Origin: an uncultured Candidatus Entotheonella sp.
GTDB lineage: Bacteria > Tectomicrobia > Entotheonellia > Entotheonellales > Entotheonellaceae
Reading direction: 5' to 3'
DNA length: 64,000 nt
Assembly (NCBI GenBank): GCA_951828535.1
Contig: OX639990.1
Span: 1,475,300 to 1,539,299, forward strand
The position numbers and the translations under genes are program-made. A model generated the notes under the pieces. That model saw only the letters and a program-made list of their open reading frames with translations, was not told the origin of the DNA and searched no databases. Below are positions 32,825-33,737 of this stretch, piece after piece (positions within the stretch are counted from its first letter, which is position 1; each line of letters starts with the position of its first letter).

Positions 32825-33379
32825 ATGACAGACAAAATCTCGCGTCGCCGCGTCGCTGGCCTTGCCGGCGGCCTCCTCATGCTCGGGCTCGCCTGCGCGG
32901 CGACCGTCTCGGCAGACCCACGTGACTACCCGCAGTTTGCACAGCAGAAGGTTGCTCAGGACATTGCCATCAAATTCACCGGCGTTGACGAATTGAAAGC
33001 CCGCATCGATACCGATGCGCCCCTGAGGATCATCGACGTACGCGGCTACGGCGACTACGCGCGTGGCCACCTGCCCGGCGCCGTTTCCATCCCCTTGGGC
33101 ATCCTGCCCTACAGCCTGCCGGACATTCCCACAGACATCCCCGTGGTGCTGTATTGAACCTGCCCGCATCACCTGGCCAGTTTGGCCTATCAGTTCCTGT
33201 ATCGGCAGGGTTATCGCAACATGACGGTGCTCGAGGGCGGCATGCCGGCGTGGCAGGAACGCCGCTATCCGCTGCAACAATTTTCGCGCGAATCGACGCG
33301 CTTGGAGCCGCAAGAATCCTTGCCCAAACGCTTCTTGACACCCCTCCAGGCCGCTGTTATAGTGCCGCCGTCAATGTAG
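32825..33379 (+). CDS. Exported rhodanese-domain selenoprotein (in-frame TGA = selenocysteine 111 at the catalytic position)
   Basis: Standard reading ends at TGA 33155-33157, but the frame continues to TAG at 33377-33379, giving 184 residues. The N-terminus is a signal peptide with paired arginines (SRRRVAGLAGGLLMLGLA, cleavage near VSA). The rhodanese domain follows: LRIIDVRGYGDYARGHLPGA, IPVVLY, the TGA codon, then TCPHHLASLAYQFLYRQGY, NMTVLEGGMPAWQERRYP. In Cys rhodaneses this position is the catalytic Cys of the VVLYCTCPxxA loop, so selenocysteine replaces the persulfide-forming residue. A hairpin GGCC-AGTTT-GGCC (33175-33187) lies at SECIS distance. AAGGA precedes the ATG. The protein should be a periplasmic thiol/selenol sulfurtransferase. 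A csp promoter lies inside its last codons. Confidence 0.87.
33175..33187 (+). promoter_or_regulatory. Predicted bacterial SECIS hairpin of the rhodanese selenoprotein gene
   Basis: GGCC (33175-33178) pairs with GGCC (33184-33187) around AGTTT, beginning 17 nt after the TGA. The apical loop begins 21 nt after it and again has G as its second base, with an unpaired T flanking the stem at 33174. The loop resembles that of the UGSC gene (AGTCT). Confidence 0.55.
33335..33363 (+). promoter_or_regulatory. Strong sigma70 promoter of the cold-shock gene
   Basis: TTGACA (33335-33340), a 17-nt spacer and TATAGT (33358-33363) form a near-consensus promoter. It lies inside the last codons of the rhodanese selenoprotein gene. 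Transcription from about 33370 would give a leader of about 166 nt before the csp ATG at 33537. Confidence 0.75.
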
Positions 33380-33536: not shown

Positions 33537-33737
33537 ATGGCGAAAGGTTCGGTAAAATGGTTTGACGATCGCAAGGGCTACGGCTTTATTGCCCGCGAGG
33601 GTGAGAAAGACATTTTTGTGCACTTCTCAGCGATCCAAGGCGACGGCTTTAAGACCCTCTCGGAAGGGGAAGAGGTAGAATTCGAGGTTGTGAACGGCCC
33701 CAAGGGCGAGCAGGCCACGAACGTTAACAAGCCGTAA
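33537..33737 (+). CDS. Cold-shock protein (CspA family)
   Basis: The 66-residue single cold-shock domain has RNP1 [10 protein letters not shown] and RNP2 DIFVHFSAI, preceded by the family start [11 protein letters not shown]. It binds single-stranded RNA/DNA and acts as an RNA chaperone or antiterminator. The ATG at 33537 follows ACGGAGAACG. A near-consensus promoter and a 166-nt leader lie upstream, and a strong intrinsic terminator lies about 27 nt after the stop, so it is a monocistronic unit. Confidence 0.95.

Follow-up and report, generated by a model that had tools for sequence, protein, structure and literature searches.

The rhodanese gene and its layout

The window, which is the whole stretch of 64,000 nucleotides analysed from a Candidatus Entotheonella genome, contains on its forward strand one frame that starts with ATG at 32825, passes an in-frame TGA at 33155-33157 (residue 111) and ends with a TAG stop at 33377-33379. 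The following features have been assigned.

32825..33379, + strand: gene predicted to encode a Sec-rhodanese, 184 residues with Sec111, TAG stop included; TGA conserved in 41 loci
32825..32917, + strand: putative N-terminal signal peptide (MTDKISRRRVAGLAGGLLMLGLACAATVSA, followed by DP), read by eye, possibly Tat-type in the source genome
32972..33277, + strand: rhodanese domain, residues ~50-151 (pLDDT 91-98; VIA-align match to rhodaneses)
33155..33157, + strand: TGA very probably read as selenocysteine (Sec111), at the catalytic site of the loop; TGA in 41/41 relatives, whereas CxCPH homologues have Cys in this column
33161..33163, + strand: Cys113, the second chalcogen residue in UxC; this codon is Cys in 41/41 UxCPH loci and Sec in CxU and UxU relatives
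33175..33187, + strand: SECIS-like hairpin GGCCA-GUU-UGGCC, apical loop beginning with G (folding, frozen synonymous codons, stem conservation)
33275..33376, + strand: weakly constrained C-terminal tail (dN/dS about 1.4; low pLDDT; relatives shorter)
33537..33737, + strand: cold-shock protein gene, a neighbour outside the system (PF00313, E=8.2e-30)

The Pfam model Rhodanese (PF00581) matches residues 54-145 with E=1.1e-18 and 68 bits against a gathering score of 22.2, and the domain thus extends over both sides of the TGA. The structure model is confident on both sides as well, with a strand at residues 107-110 and a helix at 116-127, and the top rows of VIA-align are rhodaneses (Z 17.7 to 3tp9_A, rmsd 1.2, 103 residues), which assigns the protein to the rhodanese fold. 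Residue 111, directly after the strand VVLY, stands at the catalytic position of rhodaneses. A sequence-only reading of this DNA had described a TGA at 33155 in an otherwise intact rhodanese frame, and both its coordinates and the Pfam match across the TGA bear this out. Its further statement that both halves of the domain are intact holds too. A small correction concerns the last ~34 codons (33275-33376), which appear unconstrained when the window is compared with the same-genus genome G001. Most relatives stop about 44-52 codons past the TGA and lack this tail, which is probably a lineage-specific extension.

When the TGA is translated as a residue, the 184-residue product begins with a hydrophobic leader that has an RR pair, and hydrophobic leaders are also present in the related locus L010 and in the forms found in Rokubacteria; judged by eye from its N-terminus, the Sec-rhodanese is probably exported. 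A sequence similar to the cold-shock gene is also found downstream of the L010 gene, with no evident functional link.

Conservation of the TGA and of the codons after it

A scan of public genomes, whose first pattern was blind to TGA forms so that locus counts are lower bounds, gave at least seven Rokubacteria loci with TGA at the catalytic codon. Ninety-five genomes of one phylum, that of one scan match, were then searched, and TGA at the same codon has been found in 41 distinct loci, which come from 3 Entotheonella-family genomes and from Rokubacteria (38 loci). Protein identity to the window protein is 89% in G001 and 46-48% in the same-family genome G003. The aligned site is Y-U-x-C-P-H with TGA in 41/41 loci, where the x-Cys-Pro-His part is partly by construction because the loci were collected with the motif in mind. 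TAA or TAG at the catalytic codon was found in none of the 41, and the best-scoring Rokubacteria matches showed neither these stops nor Cys at the site, an absence that is not by construction. The UxCPH form occurs in genomes of the Entotheonella family and is widespread among Rokubacteria, nearly all of the 38 loci being from the 95 genomes of one phylum. Standard gene callers would be expected to end such a gene at the TGA.

Homologues with Cys at this site (CxCPH, in the forms YCGCPH, YCSCPH and YCTCPH) occur, among the matches listed, in Dadabacteria, Myxococcota, Flavobacteriaceae (Bacteroidota), Acidobacteriota and the haloarchaeon Halovenus. The in-frame TGA therefore pairs with a Cys column, a hallmark by which bacterial selenoproteins are recognized, and it stands exactly where the sequence-only reading had put it, in place of the active-site Cys codon; the homologues which that reading had proposed to look for, YCTCPH proteins and forms with TGA at the same codon, have both been found. 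A tblastn search of plasmids returned nothing beyond rhodaneses of less than 60% identity. The tree, built on few columns and rooted at its midpoint, favours neither a Sec-first nor a Cys-first origin.

Between the window and G001, dN/dS is 0.07 across the 39 codons after the TGA, while the other two frames give 1.7-2.1 over the whole stretch past it. Among 309 pairs of Rokubacteria sequences, median dN/dS falls from 0.49 in the part before the TGA to 0.30-0.32 in the part after it. Judged by these codon comparisons, the codons downstream of the TGA are under purifying selection. Other stop codons or decayed downstream sequence in close relatives had been named beforehand as findings that would speak against selenocysteine, and neither was seen among the 41 loci. 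These data bear on two other explanations. Since TGA is formally a stop, the gene might be a Cys rhodanese that a nonsense mutation has turned into a pseudogene; however, the same TGA is kept in 41 loci of two phyla, the downstream codons are constrained and the Sec machinery is present, and the chance mutation that had already been called unlikely now has virtually no probability. We regard the pseudogene reading as refuted by the conserved TGA and downstream codons. The stretch from ATG to TGA is also a frame of 110 amino acids, which might serve as a functional truncated protein ending at the TGA or as one of two separate short products, but the part of the fold past the TGA is kept in frame with low dN/dS and completes the rhodanese domain, making this explanation very improbable.

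The downstream hairpin and the selenocysteine machinery

Bacterial SECIS elements are hairpins just downstream of the UGA with a G in a small apical loop (PMC1088965), and these features are found, at the level of sequence and folding, in the candidate SECIS of the window. Its hairpin begins 17 nt past the TGA, as had been noted from the sequence (GGCCA-GTT-TGGCC in the DNA), and in Rokubacteria the stem is longer and G+C-rich. All 41 loci keep stem pairs 26-34 and 27-33. Pair 24-36 is present in 40/41 and pair 28-32 in 38/41, where C-G changes to A-U, and in every one of the 41 loci the loop begins with G. In the 38 Rokubacteria loci, synonymous variation at codons 6-11 after the TGA is 1.26 bits below expectation versus 0.20 elsewhere, which is the highest constraint of 77 six-codon windows and lies exactly over the hairpin. 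The frozen codons are GGG (36/36), CTG (38/38), AGC (32/32) and GCC (36/38), and most of the gene's other glycine positions use GGC more often than GGG. Such near-absence of synonymous variation, the mark of an overlapping RNA signal, is the strongest evidence for a SECIS here.

In the SECIS folding that had been proposed for checking, the hairpin folds, and single-sequence folding energies do not stand out against dinucleotide shuffles. Covariation is confined to one pair, the consensus that RNAalifold derived from 10 sequences is weak, and Rfam at the gathering threshold gave no match within the 64-kb window. Because the folding z-scores are unremarkable, the evidence for an RNA signal comes from synonymous constraint and stem conservation and not from energy.

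The source genome and its sister each have tRNA-Sec, SelB and SelA above cut-off, and SelD above cut-off too; the full set of SelA, SelB, SelD and tRNA-Sec expected of a bacterial selenoprotein producer is therefore encoded. Among Rokubacteria with the Sec form, SelA was found in 7/7 tested, and SelB was above cut-off in nearly all of 39 genomes tested; a full SelB was missing in four UxCPH genomes of these 39 (G155, with a partial one, G167, G181 and G191), gaps which may reflect incomplete assemblies. SelA and SelB were not above cut-off in three Cys-form genomes (Dadabacteria, Flavobacteriaceae and Halovenus), and both were present in two Cys-form Myxococcota genomes. SelD itself has one in-frame TGA (ACAGuASK) followed by a hairpin in G002, G003 and Rokubacteria (L149-L157), and the SelD matches of the source genome (G000) and G001 have no in-frame TGA.

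UGA readthrough occurs generally, and the codon might be read through or be reassigned to another residue such as Trp. This explanation has a very small probability, because the homologue column is Cys and never Trp, TGA is the terminal stop in most Rokubacteria forms of the gene and in L010, and SelA, SelB and tRNA-Sec are present together with a constrained hairpin after the TGA. The preferred reading, Sec at the catalytic position, is drawn from the TGA in 41/41 loci without TAA or TAG, the purifying selection, the frozen hairpin, the Cys homologues and the Sec machinery. On this sequence evidence we have high confidence that the window rhodanese is a selenoprotein with Sec as its catalytic residue, and recoding of UGA111 is strongly supported. 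In the proposed mechanism, SelB bound to the hairpin 17 nt downstream of UGA111 would deliver Sec-tRNA, and the ribosome would continue to the TAG at 33377.

Possible role and comparison with known rhodanese selenoproteins

The motif Y-[C/U]-x-[C/U] has been found in 58 distinct loci (38, 13, 5 and 2 for UxC, CxC, UxU and CxU, respectively), and the UxC count becomes 41 with three loci added later. Since all four combinations occur in related genes, the catalytic residue 111 and the residue at +2 (position 113) are probably functional partners. Y110, C/U111, C/U113, G139, W143, D71 and R73 do not vary across the 41 rows of an alignment that combines Sec with Cys forms. The double-Sec UxU rhodaneses, with two TGAs two codons apart (FYuTuPEE), were seen in a phylum search at L213, L215, L216, L217 and L218. 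The CxU forms L013 and L024 are longer proteins, L013 lying within a long open frame and L024 having a DedA-like membrane domain in front.

Other rhodaneses with a TGA have also been noticed. The source genome has a second one (L007:1501-1794; G000:C1:2974810-2975103) with the loop PIVTHuGGENRA and a hairpin after the TGA, and its counterpart in the same-genus genome is a rhodanese match with one TGA (G001:C1:1613444-1613737). The unrelated genome G096 has a rhodanese with a loop-position TGA (L026:1501-1782; LTYuTAGVRS), again with a hairpin after it.

No operon partner pointing to a substrate was found in the Entotheonella neighbourhood. In Rokubacteria, the Sec-rhodanese is flanked on both sides by metallopeptidase-like genes of the PmbA/TldD type (by Pfam, at one locus), and a signature search found the PmbA/TldD type on at least one side in 31/38 loci, the meaning of which is unclear. 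At L065:760-6823 and other Rokubacteria loci, moeA lies upstream and transketolase downstream.

The sequence-only reading had suggested that the enzyme could act in sulfide, selenide or cyanide chemistry, possibly through a very reactive perselenide intermediate. Many Cys homologues, in Myxococcota, Flavobacteriaceae and Acidobacteriota, have cytochrome c domains before the rhodanese, and these fusions favour redox work over plain sulfur transfer or simple cyanide detoxification. The selenolate of Sec111, placed where the rhodanese loop begins, would take up sulfane sulfur or selenium to give Se-S(e), which Cys113 would probably resolve as a Se-S bond unless it relays the sulfur. Outside the cytoplasm, the enzyme may in this way oxidize or reduce persulfides or thiols, exchanging electrons with a c-type cytochrome, a role which we suggest tentatively by analogy with the fused homologues. 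A real selenoprotein could instead act mainly as a sulfur or selenium carrier or in cyanide/thiosulfate detoxification (thiosulfate:cyanide sulfurtransferase, EC 2.8.1.1), for which the rhodanese fold and the catalytic position speak. Typical thiosulfate loops are CRxGxR, with Arg/Lys. The UxCPH loop lacks these residues, and the cytochrome c fusions together with the Sec/Cys exchange at both motif positions suggest a redox pairing, so we consider a carrier or detoxification function somewhat less likely than the redox role. A broader reading, likewise tentative, is that there might be a family of extracytoplasmic rhodaneses whose Y-[C/U]-x-[C/U]-P pair forms a redox couple and has Sec at one position or at both (UxC, CxU, UxU). 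Its members would handle persulfides or selenium and pass electrons to c-type cytochromes, as a selenium-dependent sulfur-redox enzyme and not a sulfur carrier. Because one motif occurs in all four Sec/Cys combinations, nature offers a mutant series in which the contribution of selenium to persulfide handling can be compared.

Rhodanese selenoproteins have been reported from 2005 on (PMC1088965, PMC2398784), and the five forms given in a review of 2026 are UxxS, UxxG, CxU, UxxG and UxxxxU, with UxCPH not among them (PMC13188914). A literature search found no paper treating Entotheonella together with a selenoprotein. The best seleno-family match of the window protein is form 3, CxU (rhodanese_LYCAU, NF041203), with which it shares the rhodanese domain, a two-chalcogen loop after Tyr and the Sec/Cys interchange, yet it scores 48.5 bits against a cut-off of 115, and Sec is at +2 in that family whereas it would be at the catalytic first position (UxC) here. 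On the same model two Rokubacteria forms score 45-51 bits and two UxU loci (uTuPE) 78-84 bits. Forms 1, 2 and 4 (UxxS, UxxG; PMC13188914, PMC9312934) are also rhodanese domains with Sec, first in the loop as implied by the notation, and their motif descriptions differ from U-T-C-P of the window protein. TsoB (NF045694) is likewise a rhodanese selenoprotein, but its UxxxxU model describes a rhodanese/DsbD fusion of 572 positions, on which the window protein scores 20.2 bits against a cut-off of 805. The single-domain Cys rhodaneses GlpE and PspE share size and fold (E. coli GlpE 1gmx, Z 13.9, rmsd 2.6, 106 residues), whereas they have a catalytic Cys in another loop, and the window protein falls below their NCBIfam cut-offs. 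The UxCPH rhodanese would therefore be a known kind of selenoprotein in a motif form that is new relative to the inventories compared, where forms 1, 2 and 4 were compared by motif description.
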